A stretch of DNA of 27,715 bases from a virus. Positions 1 through 7,795 of this stretch are shown here, one piece after another (position 1 is the stretch's first letter; every line of letters begins with the position of its first letter). The notes under the pieces are model-generated. The model was given only the letters and a program-made list of their open reading frames with translations. It was not told the origin of the DNA and did not search any database. The stretch covers positions 1-27,715 of the IMG/VR virus record IMGVR_UViG_3300013004_000150, one strand, 5' to 3'. A program made the translations under genes and the position numbers.

Positions 1-152
1 AGATATGCTGGTGCAGTAAAAGCTACATTAGCAGTGGTATCTCCAGATGTAGCAGTACCAATTGTTGGAGCATCAGGAACAATATTCCAAGTGCCATCTG
101 ATATAGCTTGCATCTGCTGTGTACTAGTCCAAATTCCTGAAAAATTAGGCAT
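1..152 (-). CDS. Fibronectin type III-containing fibre protein, N-terminal part only
   Basis: Reading leftward from an ATG at 152-150, an open frame runs off the window edge (50 codons seen). It begins MPNFSGIWTS, then a linker to WNIVPDAPTIGTATSGD, which opens a fibronectin type III domain. The same linker-to-domain join occurs in the 423-residue protein at 4531-5802 (IPGAPIIGTATKGN), and the DNA is visibly similar to 5610-5680, so the two genes are paralogues. An AAGGAAAA ribosome site lies just before the ATG, overlapping the stop region of the glycine-rich gene upstream. By analogy with its paralogue, it probably continues into a glycine-rich body and acts as an exposed tail-fibre or adhesin component. 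That continuation is inference, since it lies outside the window. Confidence 0.75.
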   Translation of the reverse strand, partial: MPNFSGIWTSTQQMQAISDGTWNIVPDAPTIGTATSGDTTANVAFTAPAY

Positions 153-160
153 TATTTTCC

Positions 161-994
161 TTAGATGGTAACTGTGGCTGTACCAGCAGTAAATGTAGTG
201 GTTTTAAACCCGCCAGCCGATGCAGTTGAAGAAGTTAAACCACCACCAATTGAGAGTGTAATTGTGTCAGAATATTTAAGAATAACAAGACCTGAACCGC
301 CGTTCCAGCCTTGACTGGCTGAATTAGCCTCTCTTGAACCACCGCCACCATTTCCTGATTGACCGCTGGCATCTGCGGTAACACCACTAGACCAATACCC
401 CTTACCGCCTGCCGAATAAGTTCCGCCGGTAAGTGTTCCCACCGCACCTGCTCCGCCAAGACCGCCTCCATTTACATAGTCATTTCCTGTGTCTATGTCA
501 GTTTTTGATTGGCCTACAGCACCAGCACCTCCACCGCCAGAACCTATCCAACCTCTATAAATACCTACATTGGTTGATGTGCCACCAGCATTTCCTTGAC
601 CAGATGTTGCCGTTCCGCCTGCCATAACTCCTGCGGTGCTAGTTGAACCATAAGAACCTCCACCACCTGAACCGCCATTTCCACCGGGATTAGTAAGTCC
701 TCCACCATAACCACCACCCATTGATGTGAAAGCACCAAAAACAGAATTAGCTCCAGGACTAGCGTTACCAGCAGTCTGCTGACCCGATGCACCACCAGCA
801 CCAACAGTAACTGTAAAAGAACTGCTTAAAGTAGTAGTACCCTGCAACAGACCACCACCGCCACCGCCACCGCCTGAACCACCGCCACCCCCTGCAACAA
901 TTAGATATTGAACTGAAGGACCACTAGGACCACCACCACGCTTCTTACGAAAGGCAACTGTTGTACTGTTCCTACCCGAATTTATGAATGGCAT
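161..994 (-). CDS. Glycine-rich tail-fibre/adhesin protein (277 aa)
   Basis: The N-terminus has a short basic segment (AFRKKR, near residue 15), followed by VQYLIVAGGGGG, the typical entry into a glycine-rich domain seen in many aquatic phage fibre proteins. About residues 35-235 are runs of Gly with Ser, Ala, Asn and Thr, compatible with stacked polyglycine II helices as known from the distal adhesin of phage S16. The last 40 residues form a beta-rich cap (ILKYSDTITLSIGGGL, then KTTTFTAGTATVTI) that recurs in the 305- and 423-residue paralogues. It starts 2 bases after the stop of the 220-residue gene, so the two are probably translated together. Likely role: host-surface recognition at a fibre tip. 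Domain type is clear; the specific role is inferred. Its DNA is markedly GC-richer than its neighbours because of Gly codons. Confidence 0.8.
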   Translation of the reverse strand: MPFINSGRNSTTVAFRKKRGGGPSGPSVQYLIVAGGGGGSGGGGGGGGLLQGTTTLSSSFTVTVGAGGASGQQTAGNASPGANSVFGAFTSMGGGYGGGLTNPGGNGGSGGGGSYGSTSTAGVMAGGTATSGQGNAGGTSTNVGIYRGWIGSGGGGAGAVGQSKTDIDTGNDYVNGGGLGGAGAVGTLTGGTYSAGGKGYWSSGVTADASGQSGNGGGGSREANSASQGWNGGSGLVILKYSDTITLSIGGGLTSSTASAGGFKTTTFTAGTATVTI

Positions 995-996
995 AA

Positions 997-1659
997 TTAA
1001 AAATAACTTTGTACAGATGCAAATACATTATATGTTGGTGCAGAATCAGTTTTGACAATGTTAAACGAATATATGTCCGTGTTAGCTGAAGTGCCGCCAA
1101 TTGGTACACCTCCTGCCCATTTTACAGTTACTCCAGCACCATCAACTTGATATGTATTGATATAATATGCAGTAGAACTATTTGGCACCATAACAACATA
1201 TGATGCAAGATTACCTACAGGTAAACTTCCAAGGCCTGTAAAGTTGATAGTTGCATTTGCAGCTGAGTTTGCAGTAAATACAATGACACCAGTATCAGTT
1301 GAAGGTACCGTAAGTGTTGCACTCATTGCTGAGGTAACATTTGCTCTCTCAACTATCTGGCCAAGGAACGTAGATACTGATGCAACAGAAACATTAGTTA
1401 GTGTAATAGCAGAAGCTATTAAGTTACTAGTAATTGCGGTCAAACCAATCTTATCGCCAGTTACAGCAGCAGATGCTATTAAGTTACTAGTAATTGCGGT
1501 CAAACCAATCTTATCGCCAGTTACAGCAGCAGATGCTATTAAGTTACTAGTGATTGCAGTTAGACCAAGCTTGTCACCGGTAATTGTTTGGCCGCTAAAT
1601 AGATTACCAGTTATAGTACCGCTGGTTATTAAATTACCATTTACTCTTGTTAGTGCCAT
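997..1659 (-). CDS. Small repeat-containing tail-fibre protein (220 aa)
   Basis: The N-terminal half is a chain of about 20-residue repeats of the type GDKIGLTAITSNLIASAAVT (about residues 28-87), a pattern common in trimeric phage fibre shafts. Two of these repeats are identical at DNA level (60-bp units). The C-terminal half, from MSATLTVPSTD onward, is a beta domain closely matching the C-terminal half of the 179-residue protein at 3007-3546, including STAYYINTYQVDG, VKWAGG and GGTSANTD. The gene is preceded by a CATAAATA late-promoter-like octamer about 24 bases upstream and followed at once by a glycine-rich gene, the same arrangement as 3546 to 3004. Inferred role: structural fibre component partnered with the glycine-rich protein downstream. 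No enzymatic motif is seen. Confidence 0.75.
   Translation of the reverse strand: MALTRVNGNLITSGTITGNLFSGQTITGDKLGLTAITSNLIASAAVTGDKIGLTAITSNLIASAAVTGDKIGLTAITSNLIASAITLTNVSVASVSTFLGQIVERANVTSAMSATLTVPSTDTGVIVFTANSAANATINFTGLGSLPVGNLASYVVMVPNSSTAYYINTYQVDGAGVTVKWAGGVPIGGTSANTDIYSFNIVKTDSAPTYNVFASVQSYF
1415..1594. repeat. 60-bp tandem repeat, two identical units plus one diverged
   Basis: Units 1415-1474 and 1475-1534 are identical base for base. A third unit, 1535-1594, keeps the first half closely and diverges in the second. The period is 20 codons, so the reading frame of the 220-residue fibre gene is kept and one unit equals one fibre-shaft repeat. Perfect identity of the first two units suggests a recent slippage or unequal-recombination duplication that lengthens the shaft. 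Confidence 0.9.
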
Positions 1660-1682
1660 TTTATTATTCTCTTGTTATTCTT

Positions 1683-1690
1683 TATTTATG
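1683..1690 (-). promoter_or_regulatory. Late-promoter-like octamer CATAAATA
   Basis: The minus strand reads CATAAATA, one base from the T4 late consensus TATAAATA, about 24 bases before the ATG of the 220-residue fibre gene and just past the stop of the 122-residue gene. The layout matches the octamer at 4473-4480. The motif is short and also occurs by chance elsewhere in the window. Confidence 0.5.
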
Positions 1691-1700
1691 GTGTACCAGG

Positions 1701-2069
1701 TCAGACAACTTCAACCCAAGAAACTGTTTCTTCATTCCATGAATAAACCTTGTCATCGGCCGGCCTTGGTGTTGGTGCACCCCATAGGCAAGTCGTAGTA
1801 TCCAATATCCAAGACGGGAATGGTTTTGGTGCGATGAAAGCATCTTTTGCTGAATCATATGTGTATCCAATGCCAGCGTAGTTTTTACGATAAGCATCAC
1901 CACCAAGAGAATGAACACCGCCTGATGTATTATAACTAGTGCGTTTGCAAACTTGGCCACGGAATTCTCCGTACCATTGCTCCCAATCAATACCGTCTTC
2001 GCCCTCGTTTTTACCAACGATGACTTCGGTAACAATGTTGTTTGAATCTAAAAATGCGTAATGTGCCAT
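1701..2069 (-). CDS. Conserved aquatic-phage protein, MAHYAF type (122 aa)
   Basis: A small soluble protein beginning MAHYAFLDSNNIVTEVIVG, with a middle segment YAGIGYTYDSAKDAFIAPKP, a Trp-rich tail and closing WNEETVSWVEVV. I recognise this as a conserved protein of unknown function found in aquatic T4-like phages; it has no enzyme motif, signal peptide or membrane segment. AAAGGA lies about 9 bases before the ATG. It follows the glycine-rich gene at 2087-3004 and precedes a late-promoter octamer. A truncated copy of its first codons lies at 4472-4528 in the same position after another glycine-rich gene. The recurring place suggests a partner of the glycine-rich fibre, such as a cap, tip or assembly helper; that is inference only. 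Confidence 0.75.
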   Translation of the reverse strand: MAHYAFLDSNNIVTEVIVGKNEGEDGIDWEQWYGEFRGQVCKRTSYNTSGGVHSLGGDAYRKNYAGIGYTYDSAKDAFIAPKPFPSWILDTTTCLWGAPTPRPADDKVYSWNEETVSWVEVV

Positions 2070-2086
2070 AATTTTTTTCCTTTAAT

Positions 2087-3004
2087 TTAATTCCAAGAGA
2101 CATTGCCTGTACCAGCAGTAATGGTTGTAACTTTAAAACCACCTGATGGAGAACCTGTAGTACCAGTTAAACCAGGCCCAACTGTGATTGTGAATGTGTC
2201 AGGATATTTGAGAATAACAATACCAGAGCCGCCATTTTTTGCATCGCTAGAGCCTGTACATCCGCCACCGCCACCGCCTGTATTTGTTGTTCCAGCAATT
2301 GCATAAGAACCCGGATTGGTATTGTTAGTGCCTGCGCCGCCACCGCCCAAACCACCGGCAGGGATAGTGCCTCCATTATTGCCAGAGCCACCGCCACCAG
2401 CTAAGTAATATAAGCCGCCGGATAATTCGCCTGAGGTTGATCCTGTAATTGGATTAACAGCTCCGATGCCTCCGGTACCCGGCCCTACTCCACCCAATGC
2501 ACCTGCCGCTCCAGCGCCGCCACCGCCGCCACCGTAGTATGGAGCACCTCCACCATCACCGCCGTTATTGCCTTGAGATGGGCTTGTACTTGGCGTATTA
2601 CCAGAACCCTTAAGTGACCCACCACCGCCACTTCCAGAACCGCCGCCGCCAGAACCACCGTTGCCACCATTAGGGCCACCAGTACCCGCACCAAATCCAC
2701 CACCTGTAGAAGTTATAGCACCAAAAACAGAATCAGAACCATTAGTACCACTGGTGGTGTAACCACCCGCAGTTCCACCAGCGCCAACTGTTACTGTGAA
2801 ATTAGTTGCAGTTGCAAATCCAACACTTGCAGTTCTAAAACCGCCGGCACCGCCACCGCCGCTGTTGTAACCAGAACCGCCACTTGTAGCGCCGCCACCA
2901 GCAACTACAACATATTGAACTGTCTGAGGCAAAACACCAGCGCCAGAAAAACGCTTCTTACGAAAAGCCTTTGCTGAACCAACATTAAATCTTTGAAATG
3001 GCAT
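2087..3004 (-). CDS. Glycine-rich tail-fibre/adhesin protein (305 aa)
   Basis: Paralogue of the 277-residue protein. The N-terminus MPFQRFNVGSAKAFRKKR carries the same AFRKKR segment, followed by VQYVVVAGGGA and a glycine-rich body to about residue 260. The end is the shared beta cap (ILKYPDTFTITVGPGL, then FKVTTITAGTGNVSWN). Repeated GGGGAG and GNGGSGGGG stretches fit a polyglycine II-type fold or flexible glycine brush, as in known phage adhesin tips. It starts 2 bases after the stop of the 179-residue gene and is followed by the MAHYAF gene. Likely an exposed host-recognition component. The glycine-rich domain class is certain; the exact virion position is not. Confidence 0.8.
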   Translation of the reverse strand: MPFQRFNVGSAKAFRKKRFSGAGVLPQTVQYVVVAGGGATSGGSGYNSGGGGAGGFRTASVGFATATNFTVTVGAGGTAGGYTTSGTNGSDSVFGAITSTGGGFGAGTGGPNGGNGGSGGGGSGSGGGGSLKGSGNTPSTSPSQGNNGGDGGGAPYYGGGGGGAGAAGALGGVGPGTGGIGAVNPITGSTSGELSGGLYYLAGGGGSGNNGGTIPAGGLGGGGAGTNNTNPGSYAIAGTTNTGGGGGGCTGSSDAKNGGSGIVILKYPDTFTITVGPGLTGTTGSPSGGFKVTTITAGTGNVSWN

Positions 3005-3006
3005 GT

Positions 3007-3546
3007 TTAAAAATAACTAGCTACTTGAGCTAAAATATTATATGTTGGTGTTGCGGCTGTCTTAATAACCACAAATGAATACACATCTGTGTTGGCTGAT
3101 GTTCCACCAAGTGGTGCACCGCCTGCCCATTTTACAGTTGTTCCAGAACCATCAACTTGATATGTATTAATATAATATGCAGTTGAACTATTTGGCACCA
3201 CTACAATAAATGTAGCGCTATTACCAACTGGAACACCAGATAATCCAGTAAAGTTAACAGTACTGTTTGCAGATGAATTAGCAGTAAAAACAACATATGG
3301 CTGTGCAATATTAATATTCAAAGTAGCACTCATTGCTGTAGTAATATTTGCTGATTCTAAAGTAGAACTCAGAAATGTTGTAGCTCCAGAAACATTTAAA
3401 TTACCCAATGTTGCGGTTGATGATATCTTATCACCAGTAATTGTGTTGTTTGCAATATCAGCAAAAGTAATTTCACCATCAGCAATGAGTGCTGATGAGA
3501 TTACATTTGATGTGATACTTGCTGCTGAAATTTTTGAGAGTGCCAT
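3007..3546 (-). CDS. Small tail-fibre protein (179 aa), paralogue of the 220-aa protein
   Basis: Begins MALSKISAASITSNVISSA. Residues 1-50 contain fibre-shaft type repeats (ITGDKIS), and the rest is a beta domain almost the same as the C-terminal half of the 220-residue protein: STAYYINTYQVDGSG, VKWAGGAPLGGTSANTD and a closing SYF. The match extends to DNA (3122-3200 against 1112-1190, about five differences by eye). It lacks the extra 60-bp repeat units of its paralogue. The glycine-rich gene follows 2 bases after its stop. A TATAAATG octamer lies about 33 bases before the ATG. Probable structural fibre subunit, acting with the glycine-rich protein next to it. Confidence 0.75.
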   Translation of the reverse strand: MALSKISAASITSNVISSALIADGEITFADIANNTITGDKISSTATLGNLNVSGATTFLSSTLESANITTAMSATLNINIAQPYVVFTANSSANSTVNFTGLSGVPVGNSATFIVVVPNSSTAYYINTYQVDGSGTTVKWAGGAPLGGTSANTDVYSFVVIKTAATPTYNILAQVASYF

Positions 3547-3578
3547 ATTTTTTCTATTGTGTTAATGATTTCTCAATG

Positions 3579-3586
3579 CATTTATA
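3579..3586 (-). promoter_or_regulatory. Possible late-promoter octamer TATAAATG
   Basis: The minus strand reads TATAAATG, seven of eight bases of the T4 late consensus, in the 52-base gap before the 179-residue gene and about 33 bases from its ATG. Its place in one of the wider gaps of this block supports it; the single mismatch and the AT-rich background weaken it. Confidence 0.4.
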
Positions 3587-3598
3587 TTAACAATACAT

Positions 3599-3976
3599 TT
3601 AAGAAATTTCTTCCCATGAGCAGAGAACGGAAATACCGTTACTCGCACCGCCTTTGATACCGATTGATTGATTTTCTTGTAGATAGAAAGATGTGCTCTT
3701 ATCAATAACTATAAGTGATGCACCTCCTGGAACAGAGATGAACTGTGCAATTGGAACAGATGTTCCTCCTAATGCAGCTGCTGAGTACACATTAACAGAT
3801 ACATTAACCGCAACTTGACCAGCTGCTTTATTTGCTGCAATAATTGTGTTTACTTTATATACTTTACCACTTGAAGCTGGATTACTTAAAAGTCCAATTT
3901 CTGATGTAGTAGAAAGAATTTGTGTGTTTGAATTAGCATTAATTAGTGCTACGTTGACAATATTTGGTGCGGCCAT
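3599..3976 (-). CDS. Small beta-structured virion/fibre protein, MAAPNIV type (125 aa)
   Basis: Begins MAAPNIVNVALINANSNTQ and ends LCSWEEIS. It is a paralogue of the 117-residue protein at 5803-6156, which begins MAAPNIVSVATITGKTA and ends VCSFEEIS; both share SSGKVYKVN/SSGKVLKVN and a SFYLQE/SIYLEEGDS segment. Alternating hydrophobic and polar residues suggest a small beta sandwich. The ribosome site GGAGGA lies inside the last codons of the preceding 156-residue gene, so translation is probably coupled. The same gene pair order (MSY-type then MAAPNIV-type) recurs at 6574-5803. Such proteins are common beside fibre genes in aquatic T4-like phages; the function is unknown, probably a structural or fibre-linking part. 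Confidence 0.7.
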   Translation of the reverse strand: MAAPNIVNVALINANSNTQILSTTSEIGLLSNPASSGKVYKVNTIIAANKAAGQVAVNVSVNVYSAAALGGTSVPIAQFISVPGGASLIVIDKSTSFYLQENQSIGIKGGASNGISVLCSWEEIS

Positions 3977-3981
3977 TTAGT

Positions 3982-4452
3982 TTATCCTCCGAATACAATA
4001 GACATAGCTATTGCCTTTCCTGTTGTTGCGCCGGGTGTGGCAAGTTTTGCGTTTGTAATTGTTGAGTCAACGATGTTATTTGCATTGATTGCTGTCAGGC
4101 CAATCTTGTCACCTGTCACAGCAGCTGATGCAATCTTGTCGCCTGTAATAGCACTAGTCTGAATCTTAGCTGTAGATACAGAGAAGTCTGATGGGATATG
4201 TGGACTAGCACCAAGTCCAAGGAACAATACTTGAATATTGTTTGTACCTGTTGGAGGTGCTTCTGAGAATGTAAGTGTTGTGCCAGATAATGAATATGTA
4301 TCTGTATGCTGGCGAATACCACCAACGAATATTAGAATCGAAGAAGTAGTTACTGGTGCTTCACGCAAGGTGAAGTTGACTGTGCTATTATCACCATTGA
4401 AGGAATCAATAGCAAAGGTTGCTGATGTGGGCAAATTTCCAATGTATGACAT
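3982..4452 (-). CDS. Small tail-fibre protein, MSYIGN type (156 aa)
   Basis: The N-terminus MSYIGNLPTSATFAIDSFNG leads into an approximately 80-residue beta domain (FTLREAPVTTSSILIFVGG, then LTFSEAPPTGTNNIQVLF) found in many cyanophage fibre proteins. This is followed by shaft repeats (SAITGDKIASAAVTGDKIG) and a conserved tail, TNAKLATPGATTGKAIAM. The 131-residue paralogue at 6179-6574 has the same start, the same EAP-SGT-N motif and the same tail, but fewer shaft repeats. The shaft repeats also match the 220-residue protein, so modules have been exchanged between fibre genes. CATAAATA lies about 21 bases before the ATG. Inferred role: fibre component or adaptor. Confidence 0.75.
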   Translation of the reverse strand: MSYIGNLPTSATFAIDSFNGDNSTVNFTLREAPVTTSSILIFVGGIRQHTDTYSLSGTTLTFSEAPPTGTNNIQVLFLGLGASPHIPSDFSVSTAKIQTSAITGDKIASAAVTGDKIGLTAINANNIVDSTITNAKLATPGATTGKAIAMSIVFGG

Positions 4453-4471
4453 ATGTTTTATTTAGTTGTTA

Positions 4472-4528
4472 TTATTTATGATGCTTGCCAACGATGTTGT
4501 TTGGATCTAAAAATGCATAATGTGCCAT
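4472..4528 (-). pseudogene. Truncated copy of the MAHYAF gene
   Basis: Reading leftward from an ATG at 4528 gives MAHYAFLDPNNIVGKHHK and a stop, 18 codons. The first 13 residues match the 122-residue protein at 1701-2069 with one change (S to P), and the DNA is similarly close. The copy then jumps from IV to GK, as if the five codons TEVIV were lost between two ATYGTT repeats, and soon ends. It begins 2 bases after the stop of a glycine-rich gene and ends inside a late-promoter octamer, the same layout as the intact copy. It is best read as a deletion remnant; translation of the short peptide cannot be excluded. Confidence 0.8.
4473..4480 (-). promoter_or_regulatory. Late-promoter-like octamer CATAAATA
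   Basis: The minus strand reads CATAAATA, one base off the T4 late consensus, about 21 bases before the ATG of the 156-residue gene. It overlaps the last codons of the truncated MAHYAF copy. A matching octamer lies at the same place after the intact MAHYAF gene (1683-1690). Confidence 0.5.
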
Positions 4529-4530
4529 GT

Positions 4531-5802
4531 TTATTCATTCCATTGAACATTGCCTGTACCGGCGGTAAAGGTTGTGACTTTACTATCCCCATCCGTTTCA
4601 GTTGTACCCGTTAAGCCAGCACCAATTGTGATAGTATATCCAGTCGGGTATCTGAGAATGACTACACCAGAACCGCCACTGCCGCCATAGCCGGAATAGT
4701 TGACATTGCCACCACCACCACCACCGCCAGTGTTGACAGTTCCAGCAACACCTGTCGGAGAAGCCGAATCGTTGGCGCCAGCGCCACCACCACCGTTACC
4801 ACCAGCGCCGGCAGTTTGACCGCCGCTAGAATTGTTTAGAACAGAGCCACCGCCACCGCCAGCACGGAACACGGATGGGCCTGTAATGGTTGACGCAACG
4901 CCCGCACCACCAGCACCGCCTGTTCCAGTAGTAGTTCCTGTTGAAGCACCACCAACTGCGCCTGCGCCGCCACCGCCTCCACCTAAACCTGTAGCTTCAG
5001 GGCCATAACTGTCTCGACCTAGTCCGCCGTTATAGCCTTGATTTGCTGTTCCTGTTCCTACTGTCGGCGTGTAGCCGTTTGCACCACCACCACTTCCGCC
5101 ATTTCTTGTAGCGGGGCCCCCAGCGCCAGCACCGCCACCACCGCCAATGGATGTAATAGCATTAAATACTGAATCTGAACCAAGATTTCCATGGTTTGTA
5201 TTGTTCGTTCCAGCCCCACCTGCACCTATGGTTACTGTGTAATTGGTTGCAAGCGTAAATGTAAATACAGACTCGGCACTCCCGCCGCCGCCAGAAGTTC
5301 CATAAGATGTTCTATAACCTCCAGCACCACCACCGCCGGCTGCTCGGTTACTTTGAGTACCACCGGCACCACCGCCCGCAATAACAAGGTAATTAACTTC
5401 AGGCGCCGGCGGCTGTGTTGGTGTGACGCCATTAGATGCAGCACTTGGTGCGCTTGCACCTGCTGCATTGGTTGCTGTAACAGTAAATGTAACATTTACA
5501 TTATTAGTTAAACCAGTAATAGTAATAGGCGAAACTGTATTAGAAGAAGAAATTCCAGTATTTGATGTGGCAATAAAACTAGTAATTGTGTTTGGAAATC
5601 CAGTGTCTGTTGGTGCAGTAAAAGTTACCGTAGCAATAGTATTTCCCTTTGTAGCAGTACCAATTATTGGAGCACCAGGTATCTTAGGCCAGATGTTATC
5701 TTTTCGAGCAGTATGCACTTCGGACAAAGACCAAATTCCTCTGGCATTTCCAGATGCTGTGCCATTTAGGATTCCAATAATCCCACCATTCTTGCGGCTC
5801 AT
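4531..5802 (-). CDS. Fibronectin type III plus glycine-rich tail-fibre adhesin (423 aa)
   Basis: Three parts are visible. Residues 1-40 are a leader with GIWSLSEVHTARKDNIWP, seen in aquatic phage fibre proteins. Residues 42-128 form a fibronectin type III domain (PGAPIIGTATKGN, TVTFTAPTD, then FTVTATNAAGASAPS). Residues 137-385 are glycine-rich, opened by VNYLVIAGGGAGG, and the end is the shared beta cap (ILRYPTGYTITIGAGL, KVTTFTAGTGNVQWN). It is the longest of the three complete glycine-rich paralogues and the only one with the fibronectin domain at its front. Its stop-start junction with the 117-residue gene is TAAATG, so coupling is likely. Probable surface-exposed host-binding fibre; the domain calls are strong, the receptor unknown. 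Confidence 0.85.
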   Translation of the reverse strand: MSRKNGGIIGILNGTASGNARGIWSLSEVHTARKDNIWPKIPGAPIIGTATKGNTIATVTFTAPTDTGFPNTITSFIATSNTGISSSNTVSPITITGLTNNVNVTFTVTATNAAGASAPSAASNGVTPTQPPAPEVNYLVIAGGGAGGTQSNRAAGGGGAGGYRTSYGTSGGGGSAESVFTFTLATNYTVTIGAGGAGTNNTNHGNLGSDSVFNAITSIGGGGGAGAGGPATRNGGSGGGANGYTPTVGTGTANQGYNGGLGRDSYGPEATGLGGGGGGAGAVGGASTGTTTGTGGAGGAGVASTITGPSVFRAGGGGGSVLNNSSGGQTAGAGGNGGGGAGANDSASPTGVAGTVNTGGGGGGGNVNYSGYGGSGGSGVVILRYPTGYTITIGAGLTGTTETDGDSKVTTFTAGTGNVQWNE

Positions 5803-6156
5803 TTAACTAATTTCCTCAAAACTGCAAACAGCTTCAATGTCATTATTTGCACTAGCTGTTAAGCGCAATGAATCGCCTTCTTCAAGATAAATTGAACCAC
5901 TCAGAACATCGAGAGTTGCATCAGCGGGAACTGATATTGTTTTAGCAATTCGATAAGCAACCGAGCTTCGGAAAAGGTCAATGTCCACATCTGCCGCATT
6001 TGTACCATCAACATTTGAGATATACAAAACATTTACTTTTAAAACTTTTCCACTTGAATTGGAGTTTGTAACAATTGCGGTGGCTGAAGTGCTAACATTT
6101 TGAACCGCAGTTTTGCCGGTAATTGTTGCGACACTTACGATATTCGGTGCTGCCAT
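5803..6156 (-). CDS. Small beta-structured virion/fibre protein, MAAPNIV type (117 aa)
   Basis: Paralogue of the 125-residue protein at 3599-3976, with the same MAAPNIV start, SSGKVLKVN segment, SIYLEEGDSLRL near residue 90 and closing CSFEEIS. The two proteins are alignable end to end, with more divergence in the middle. GGAAAA preceded by a long A/T tract forms the ribosome-site region in the 22-base gap before the ATG. It is placed between the MSY-type and the fibronectin/glycine-rich gene. No catalytic motif or membrane segment is present. Likely a small structural subunit of the fibre assembly; no precise function can be assigned. Confidence 0.7.
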   Translation of the reverse strand: MAAPNIVSVATITGKTAVQNVSTSATAIVTNSNSSGKVLKVNVLYISNVDGTNAADVDIDLFRSSVAYRIAKTISVPADATLDVLSGSIYLEEGDSLRLTASANNDIEAVCSFEEIS

Positions 6157-6178
6157 GATTTTTTCCTTTTATTTTTTT

Positions 6179-6574
6179 TTATTTTTTACCAAAAACGATA
6201 GCCATAGCTATTGCTTTTCCTGTTGATGCTCCAGGAGTGGCTAGTTTTGCATTGGTGATTGTTGCGTCAGCAATTGCTGCATCAGTTACAGTACCATCAG
6301 CAGGAACAAACTTAGTGATTGTGTAGTTGCGGTATGTAACAGTAATGTTATCAGTACCAGAAGATGGTGCTTCAGTAAAAGTAAGAGTTTGTGTGCCATT
6401 TACAGTATACGCATTAAACGGATCTTGTTGGACATTGTTAACGATAACTTCAATGTCAGAGGCATTATACACCGGTCTAGACAATGTGACGGTAGTTGCG
6501 CTACCATTGCCATTAAATCTTTCAGTAAGAGATGTAAATGACTGAGTGGTTGGTGTATTGCCTAGATAAGACAT
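6179..6574 (-). CDS. Small tail-fibre protein, MSYLGN type (131 aa)
   Basis: Begins MSYLGNTPTTQSFTSLTERF, then a beta domain with VTLSRPVYNASDIEVIVNNV and LTFTEAPSSGTDNITVTYR, a well-populated domain in cyanophage and other aquatic phage fibre proteins. The end (TNAKLATPGASTGKAIAMAI) is nearly identical to that of the 156-residue paralogue. Its ATG overlaps the stop of the preceding 105-residue gene by one base (TAATG), so translation is coupled. It may form the trimeric or adaptor part of a side fibre; this is inferred from the domain type and context. Confidence 0.75.
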   Translation of the reverse strand: MSYLGNTPTTQSFTSLTERFNGNGSATTVTLSRPVYNASDIEVIVNNVQQDPFNAYTVNGTQTLTFTEAPSSGTDNITVTYRNYTITKFVPADGTVTDAAIADATITNAKLATPGASTGKAIAMAIVFGKK

Positions 6575-6891
6575 TAACTAATCTCCAAGACCGATAAAAT
6601 AACATCACTAGTGCCGGATGTTGAAACTTTAATTGCATCGGCTGCTTCCATAACAAGTTTCTGAGAAGCACCAATTGGTACAAAGGCACCGCCAACTGCA
6701 ATAGTGGCTTGACTCACCATATAATAATCAGTACCACCAGAAGTCAAAAATACGTTGGCTGAAATTGGTGAGTTAGTCAAATTTGCAATTGTCATACCAA
6801 TAAGCGTAGCCTGTACTCCGGCGCCTGCGGTAAAGATTGTTGAGTTTGCTGTAACAGCTTTACCGAAATAATTTTTAAAAGTATTTGCCAT
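6574..6891 (-). CDS. Small virion/fibre-associated protein (105 aa)
   Basis: Begins MANTFKNYFGKAVTANSTIF and ends VILSVLEIS. The closing EIS and the beta pattern recall the MAAPNIV-type proteins (117 and 125 residues), so it may be a distant relative, but the identity is low. AAGGA sits about 9 bases before the ATG. It is the first gene after three tandem late-promoter-like octamers and heads the fibre block 6891-4531. Similar short proteins are common beside fibre genes of aquatic T4-like phages. The function is unknown; a structural role is inferred from place and composition. Confidence 0.65.
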   Translation of the reverse strand: MANTFKNYFGKAVTANSTIFTAGAGVQATLIGMTIANLTNSPISANVFLTSGGTDYYMVSQATIAVGGAFVPIGASQKLVMEAADAIKVSTSGTSDVILSVLEIS

Positions 6892-6912
6892 TTTTTAATA
6901 TCCTTGATATCC

Positions 6913-6936
6913 TATTTATGTATTTATGTATTTATC
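6913..6936 (-). promoter_or_regulatory. Three tandem late-promoter-like octamers
   Basis: On the minus strand, three contiguous octamers read GATAAATA, CATAAATA and CATAAATA, each one base from the T4 late consensus. They lie about 22 to 45 bases before the ATG of the 105-residue gene; the outermost overlaps the stop codon of the 287-residue gene. An exact 8-base period is unlikely for chance AT-rich sequence and suggests a duplicated promoter element for the fibre block. Confidence 0.6.
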
Positions 6937-7795
6937 CTAGCGCAATCGCAAACGCTAATCCATCACCTAAAGAAGCAACAGCTGTGTTAGCAGCTAAAAA
7001 AGCCGCATTAGCAGTATTTAAGGCCACAGTTATACTATTATTTTGAGTTAAATTCGTAGCAGAAGCTGCTGTGACACTTGCGTTAACTGAAGTAACGGTA
7101 GGTTGGATAATTAAATTACCCACCATAACTGAGTGATTTTGACATTGATATACATAAGTGTTGCCAGCTAAATTAAAAGGAACTTTCCAAATGAGTGTTC
7201 CAGTTTCTTTCGCTTGAGCACCACCTTCAGTAGTAACAATACCAGTTGTTGTAACGTGAGTAAGACCATTACTGTATAATGTTCCGCCATTTGATTGTCT
7301 TATCAAAAATGGATGGCCTGCAGCATTAATGTTAAATGAAACAGTTTGGCCAGGATGTAAATATATGTCAGGATTGTTACCAGAGTATTGGTCAAATACG
7401 TAAGCCCCTGCACCAGAATTTGTAACGGCGAAAGTAGTAACACCAGTTCTTACATTAGCATTTGAAGAAAATGCAAATCCATTAACAAAAACATTTGAGT
7501 TAACACTTAAAAGACCAGTAGTACTGATAATAGTATTAAGATTTGAAGTGCCTAATACTGTTAAATTGTTTGCAAAAGAAGCTGAGCCATTAGAGTTGAT
7601 ATCATCAAAACTAATTGCATCAAGAATAATATTTCCTGATACTGTTAAGTCACCACCAATTTTAATATTAGTGTTTGCTAAAAAAGTAAAAGAATTTCCG
7701 CCGTCTGTAAGATCGTTTGCAAAAGAAATAAGAGATTGAGAAGAAGTCAACCATTGTTGAAACGTATTCGCCGTTGTGATTTGATTAATAGCCAT
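6932..7795 (-). CDS. Tail-fibre protein with a cupredoxin-like domain (287 aa)
   Basis: Residues 40-110 are beta-strand repeats of the NTNIKIGGDLTVSGNI type, usual in phage fibre bases. Residues 130-232 look like a cupredoxin: a first strand at AYVFDQYSG, then LHPGQTVSFNI, GHPFLI with His161, and near the end YVYQCQNHSVMVGNL with Cys218, His221 and Met224. This is the full His, Cys, His, Met set of a type-1 copper site in the normal spacing. Residues 233-287 are Ala/Thr/Asn-rich and may form the next shaft. Related cupredoxin-like segments are known to me from aquatic phage structural proteins. The start overlaps the preceding stop as TAATG. Copper binding, electron transfer or simple structural use cannot be separated from sequence. 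Confidence 0.75.
   Translation of the reverse strand: MAINQITTANTFQQWLTSSQSLISFANDLTDGGNSFTFLANTNIKIGGDLTVSGNIILDAISFDDINSNGSASFANNLTVLGTSNLNTIISTTGLLSVNSNVFVNGFAFSSNANVRTGVTTFAVTNSGAGAYVFDQYSGNNPDIYLHPGQTVSFNINAAGHPFLIRQSNGGTLYSNGLTHVTTTGIVTTEGGAQAKETGTLIWKVPFNLAGNTYVYQCQNHSVMVGNLIIQPTVTSVNASVTAASATNLTQNNSITVALNTANAAFLAANTAVASLGDGLAFAIALG

Follow-up and report, generated by a model that had tools for sequence, protein, structure and literature searches.

Genes of the fibre array and the 18-codon frame

The window, that is, the whole stretch of DNA analysed here, is a 27.7-kb virus record (27,715 nucleotides) with a T4-like tail region, and no DNA neighbours of it were found among named phages. 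Fibre and fibre-associated genes are carried by a minus-strand array at positions 1-7000. Read along the minus strand, a MAAPNIV-type gene (5803-6156), homologues of which precede a glycine-rich fibre gene and a full-length MAH gene in relatives, is followed by a gene for a fibre with fibronectin-like and glycine-rich parts (4531-5802; PF21722, E 7e-16; phrog_2295). The latter lies directly upstream of an 18-codon frame (4472-4528, minus strand), behind which stands a phrog_18673-like gene of the fibre region, the MSYIGN gene (3982-4452, minus strand). Further along, a second glycine-rich fibre gene (2087-3004, minus strand; PF21722) is immediately followed by the intact MAHYAF gene (1701-2069, minus strand), and a third, recognised by its sequence at 161-994 (minus strand), has no MAH gene directly behind it. 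The gene at 997-1659, behind the intact MAHYAF copy, holds repeats of about 60 bp at 1408-1581 (SNLIASAAVTGDKIGLTAIT), which are partly common to 4088-4134.

The 122-residue product of the MAHYAF gene is a full-length member of phrog_7759, here called the MAH family (E 3.2e-38, covering profile positions 1-121 of 125), and is discussed below as a candidate chaperone of glycine-rich fibres. The family has at least 600 matches in viral contigs. To our knowledge it has no known function, and it is annotated as hypothetical.

The DNA of the 18-codon frame, ATGGCACATTATGCATTTTTAGATCCAAACAACATCGTTGGCAAGCATCATAAATAA, read from 4528 to 4472 on the minus strand, translates to MAHYAFLDPNNIVGKHHK followed by a stop. 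Its codons 1-13 (4490-4528) share 36 of 39 bases with codons 1-13 of the MAHYAF gene (2069-2031); two of the changes are silent and one alters an amino acid. A match of this kind was absent from 100 shuffled sequences, and the similarity is beyond chance. It is also not confined to a ribosome site, as the match extends back into the fibre gene's 3' portion, with 72% identity over 205 nt (4678-4490 against 2234-2031), and the Shine-Dalgarno-like AAAGGA segment that precedes the start of the intact copy is missing from the short one. Because the longest exact repeat touching 4400-4700 measures only 15 nt, an origin by assembly collapse or mix-up is unlikely. A profile built from the family is matched by the stub at its first 14 positions only, and 13-15 positions in all are retained, so the stub is to be regarded as a relic and not as a phrog_7759 member. 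A proline at position 9 was considered as a sign of decay and rejected, since an intact family protein in another contig (L231) carries proline there.

Downstream of the aligned codons, the last codons and stop of the stub are overlapped by CATAAATA (4473-4480, minus strand), a T4-type late-promoter-like motif of the next gene. This is an instance of the NATAAATA late promoter described for T4-like cyanophages (PMC2984593). Within the window, a gene start follows 9 of the 12 ATAAATA motifs at a distance of 4-37 nt, and the motif occurs in 7 upstream regions against 1.2 expected. Three consecutive copies, 8 nt apart, are found at 6913-6935, upstream of the gene starting at 6891.

The slot in relatives and the origin of the stub

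The slot occupied by the stub is filled by complete genes elsewhere. The order of an upstream MAAPNIV gene, a glycine-rich fibre of MxRxNGGIIG type and a full-length MAH gene was found at 24 loci, and about five further loci were tagged x-MAH in an automated scan of the same MAAPNIV/fibre slot. A relative that keeps the full gene behind a fibronectin/glycine-rich fibre was sought and found in L002, which ranks first among the matches listed by similarity of its MAH protein (79%). At the DNA level, the end of its fibre gene shares 79% identity with 4546-4678, and 113 nt behind this related fibre lies a gene for a 117-residue MAH-family protein. With such full-length members in the slot of relatives and 36 of 39 bases shared with the intact copy, the description of 4472-4528 in the initial annotation as a remnant of the MAHYAF gene is upheld, and with high confidence the stub is a truncated relic of a MAH-family gene. 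The 113-nt gap of L002 is at most suggestive of a second relic, and in two other contigs (L009, L017) a gene resembling, by eye, a 2OG-type oxygenase stands between the glycine-rich fibre and the MAH gene.

The short form itself was not recovered from any relative with degenerate patterns covering the exact peptide or any MAH start with loss of the residues TEVIV. Eleven contigs have a MAH start with ATAAATA within 30 nt, but every one of these lies inside a full-length gene and none is a further stub. Among about 170 MAH-like starts behind glycine-rich fibres the stub is unique, save for a 38-codon case in L300 (2746-2862, MAHYTFTDTDDVATQTVTGISE...), which occupies the MAH slot at a distance of about 100 nt from a glycine-rich fibre and appears to be another, independent case of a short or degenerate MAH gene. 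The peptide is thus not conserved as such in relatives. As the stub is known from one contig, itself a fragment, other MAH genes of the same virus could lie outside it.

The internal structure of the stub points to its decay. Intact members read NNIV-TEVIV-GK, whereas the stub reads NNIV-GK; the missing 15 nt are bounded by the repeats ATTGTT and ATCGTT, of which the second is kept. The GGCAAG that follows codon 13 (4484-4489, minus strand) fits the GGYAAR codons of the family, which would occur there by chance about once in 1000, and these bases are likely the ancestral VGK codons. The jump from IV to GK had been ascribed to loss of five codons between two ATYGTT repeats, and this holds. No deletion of TEVIV was found among 99 aligned homologues, and in the MAH model these residues are part of the second β-strand (residues 12-19); judged from the model and the alignment, the predicted stub product therefore cannot adopt the MAH fold. 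Beyond GGCAAG, the DNA is that of the next gene's leader, including CATAAATA. A similar leader, GCATGATAAATAGAATAA, precedes the homologue of the MSYIGN gene in L082, and no MAH gene stands before this homologue in L082 or L083, which hold its nearest homologues.

We infer from this arrangement that a complete MAH-family gene (phrog_7759) formerly stood behind the fibre gene at 4531-5802, with the stub as its non-functional 5' end. In the order and mechanism proposed, 15 nt would have been lost from between the ATYGTT repeats; the late-promoter leader of the next module would have become joined to the codons that follow GK, either through a more extensive loss or by recombination. A copy of the same subtype, the intact gene at 1701-2069, could serve in trans, such that the relic would persist without cost; the loss is probably compensated in this way.

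A possible, if less probable, origin is a recombination scar, in which the fibre gene 4531-5802 was imported from another phage together with the first codons of its MAH gene and joined at once to the MSYIGN leader, without deletion in place. Tail-fibre modules are shuffled among relatives, the leader at which the stub terminates can also be recognised in L082, ahead of the homologous gene, and a MAH gene of another contig has been cut and fused. In that case (L143, 3147-3593), MAH sequence extends to about residue 49 and is followed in frame by peptidase-like sequence (phrog_32486, E 5e-8). The internal loss of TEVIV, however, demands a second event of such a scar, and the two readings differ in mechanism only.

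The initial annotation had also taken the stub and the intact copy as direct evidence that a whole cassette was duplicated in the genome of the window and one accessory gene then lost. Such a history is improbable here. In its favour, the fibre 3' ends and MAH starts are alike at both places over the 205 nt noted above, the stub is marginally closest to the window's own copy, and other modules of the array have been duplicated (3293-2636 against 1283-653, 68%). The layouts agree in that a MAH start stands behind a glycine-rich gene in both, but the supposed next fibre gene differs in family: the genes at 3982-4452 and 997-1659 have phrog_18673 and phrog_5906, respectively, as their best matches, are similar only in a 42-residue repeat stretch and are not paralogues. 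The fibre end of 4531-5802 is also closer to the fibronectin fibre of L002 (79%) than to 2087-3004. Nor is CATAAATA a sign of cassette duplication, since it is generic before many genes, and the 39 nt had to be rejected as a marker of parentage, since several unrelated phages match them at 35 of 39 bases, nearly as well as the window's own copy does at 36 of 39. Finally, the presence of the MAAP-Gly-MAH order at 24 loci marks an old and common slot, which makes duplication unnecessary to explain the stub. The array does grow by copying, but the pair of stub and intact copy is no evidence for it.

That the 18 codons form a functional micropeptide or leader peptide is highly improbable, for although start and stop are intact, the 13-codon frame is retained with the few changes given above and the 38-codon frame of L300 occupies the same slot, the form is absent from all relatives searched, it is without the Shine-Dalgarno-like segment of the intact copy, its stop falls within the promoter motif of the next gene, and the shortest ordinary family members measure 75-85 residues. 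The 63-position phrog_14370 was considered as evidence for short forms and rejected, because the better matches in 20 records are frames of full MAH length or other frames, and not of 18 codons.

Pairing of the MAH family with glycine-rich fibres

A hint in the initial annotation that the MAHYAF protein is paired with a particular glycine-rich fibre finds support at the level of the family as a whole and of its subtypes, rather than for the single fibre 4531-5802. Of 83 MAH genes recruited solely through their own sequence, 68 lay directly behind a glycine-rich open reading frame, mostly with overlapping or near-abutting ends, and this is the position, directly downstream of a fibre gene, of gp25/Tfa-type genes. 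Conversely, fibres were recruited by their C-terminus, and of the 75 with a readable neighbour 63 have a MAH gene no more than 200 nt behind.

The pairing extends to subtype. MAHY genes stand behind fibre ends of AGTG type against GSP/TGSG type in a ratio of 97:0, and MAHF genes behind GSP/TGSG against AGTG ends in a ratio of 28:2, with the two main recruitment sets biased to the MAHY/AGTG types; a neutral subset agrees (2 Y/A, 27 F/B, 0 crossed). In three contigs, two MAH genes stand behind glycine-rich fibres, and of these L035 keeps the subtype match, L002 breaks it and L041 has a second fibre that is unclassified. In L234, L260 and L269, as in the window, an array encodes more than one glycine-rich fibre and has only one MAH gene, at its end, an arrangement that fits one helper for several fibres.

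Similarity between pairs of MAH proteins follows that between the last 45 residues of their fibres in the N-terminal part (residues 1-50, rho 0.67) and not in the C-terminal part (residues 61-125, rho -0.10), a co-variation to which co-inheritance of neighbouring DNA could contribute in part. Within the MAHY/AGTG group the N-terminal half gives 0.34-0.35 against -0.13 to -0.16 for the C-terminal half; within the MAHF group the N-terminal half gives 0.47-0.51, and the C-terminal half also follows weakly (0.27-0.28). Across 18 trios, the correlation with the fibre end is 0.76 for MAH residues 1-50, 0.13 for residues 61-125 and 0.18 for MAAP. As a control for linkage, the end of the equally adjacent MAAP gene was compared with the fibre start and gave only 0.11, so linkage alone does not explain the co-variation. 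A MAH-family gene was also seen in a contig of a cultured bacterium, Microvirga alba strain BT350 (L332, NZ_JADQDO010000016.1), perhaps in a prophage.

Predicted folds and a proposed chaperone role

The fibre encoded at 2087-3004 was modelled with a pLDDT of 82.6, and the model shows a TNF-like domain with stacked glycine-rich loops. It resembles gp24 of cyanophage Pam3 (7yfw_a, Z 12.5 over 167 residues at 2.6 Å; 7ypx_A, Z 11.1), which likewise (7YPX/7YFW) has a TNF-like β-sandwich with inserted glycine-rich loops; the glycine-rich domains of ALK/LTK score Z 5-6, and unrelated folds about 4. The structural role of the gp24-gp25 pair has been described in Pam3, where gp24 was likened to gp38 of phage S16 (PMC9608196). 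Unlike gp24, this fibre has no predicted N-terminal helical domain for docking to the baseplate, with residues 1-20 modelled at a low pLDDT (about 50) and without a helix. A further difference is that the window encodes several glycine-rich fibres in one array, and one of them carries a fibronectin-like domain.

The model of the MAHYAF protein (AF2, pLDDT 96.8) has one helix, at residues 29-37, with hairpins after it. Residues 1-81 were matched to residues 3-57 of Pam3 gp25, its fibre-binding domain (7ypx_a), with a Z of 4.4 over 55 residues at 2.9 Å, the top of 88 chains but weak and below what is securely interpretable alone; a Foldseek match to gp25 is similarly weak (E 2.3). No sequence similarity of MAH to any Tfa chain in the PDB was detected, and the 99 family members gave no Pfam family (Caudo_TAP or other Tfa) beyond single chance matches; gp25 was the sole Tfa structure in the list compared, which is thus no argument against Tfa kinship. 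Like Pam3 gp25 and Tfa-type chaperones (Mu Tfa, T4 gp38), MAH is encoded directly behind a gp24-type fibre. It lacks the C-terminal helical trimerisation domain of gp25/Tfa and has instead Trp-rich β-hairpins, which are sometimes missing (forms of 75-85 residues), and for this reason the proposal is stated as gp25-like working and not as Tfa membership. The best solved match of MAH is the partner of the fibre's best match and falls in the half that co-varies with the fibre, and the weak Z of 4.4 gains support from this agreement.

MAH proteins are most likely dedicated assembly chaperones (or caps) of glycine-rich fibres, as suggested by gene order, co-variation and the predicted folds. The N-terminal β/α domain (about residues 1-60) would hold the fibre by its C-terminal TNF-like strands, in the way that Pam3 gp25 binds gp24, and the Trp-rich hairpins would be a separate, exchangeable module. 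On the same grounds and from its sequence, the stub is probably what remains of a gene for a gp25-like fibre chaperone, once complete behind the fibre gene 4531-5802.

That MAH proteins are instead parts of the virion, as fibre-tip caps or adhesins, is rather unlikely. Where phages use gp38-type adhesins, the tip is encoded by the gene that follows the fibre gene, and the Trp-rich hairpins could bind sugars. Glycine-rich distal loops are, however, already present on the fibre, the best structural match is a chaperone from the same Pam3 complex, and the half coupled to the fibre is the N-terminal domain, the other varying mostly freely.

The relic is by itself ordinary, but through it a family with no annotation beyond hypothetical has gained a proposed function that can be tested. 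The balance tips slightly towards a broader reading of the chaperone proposal, in which phrog_7759 would be a very common, nameless class of cognate chaperones of gp24-type fibres, with an N-terminal half matched by subtype to the C-terminal strands of the fibre and an exchangeable C-terminal half; fibre and chaperone would move as one unit among aquatic phages, and relics would mark failed or redundant pairs. If so, expression of the glycine-rich fibres with which uncultured aquatic phages recognise their hosts would require MAH, and which helper fits which fibre could be predicted from the MAHY/MAHF match.

Two observations concern the C-terminal hairpins. In five contigs (L145, L154, L167, L174, L176), MAH proteins of 75-82 residues without them are encoded behind glycine-rich fibres, which suggests a minimal N-terminal domain. 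In four others (L060, L092, L099, L101), the Trp-rich hairpin module also ends unrelated small proteins that start with MNLYIKxEN or similar.
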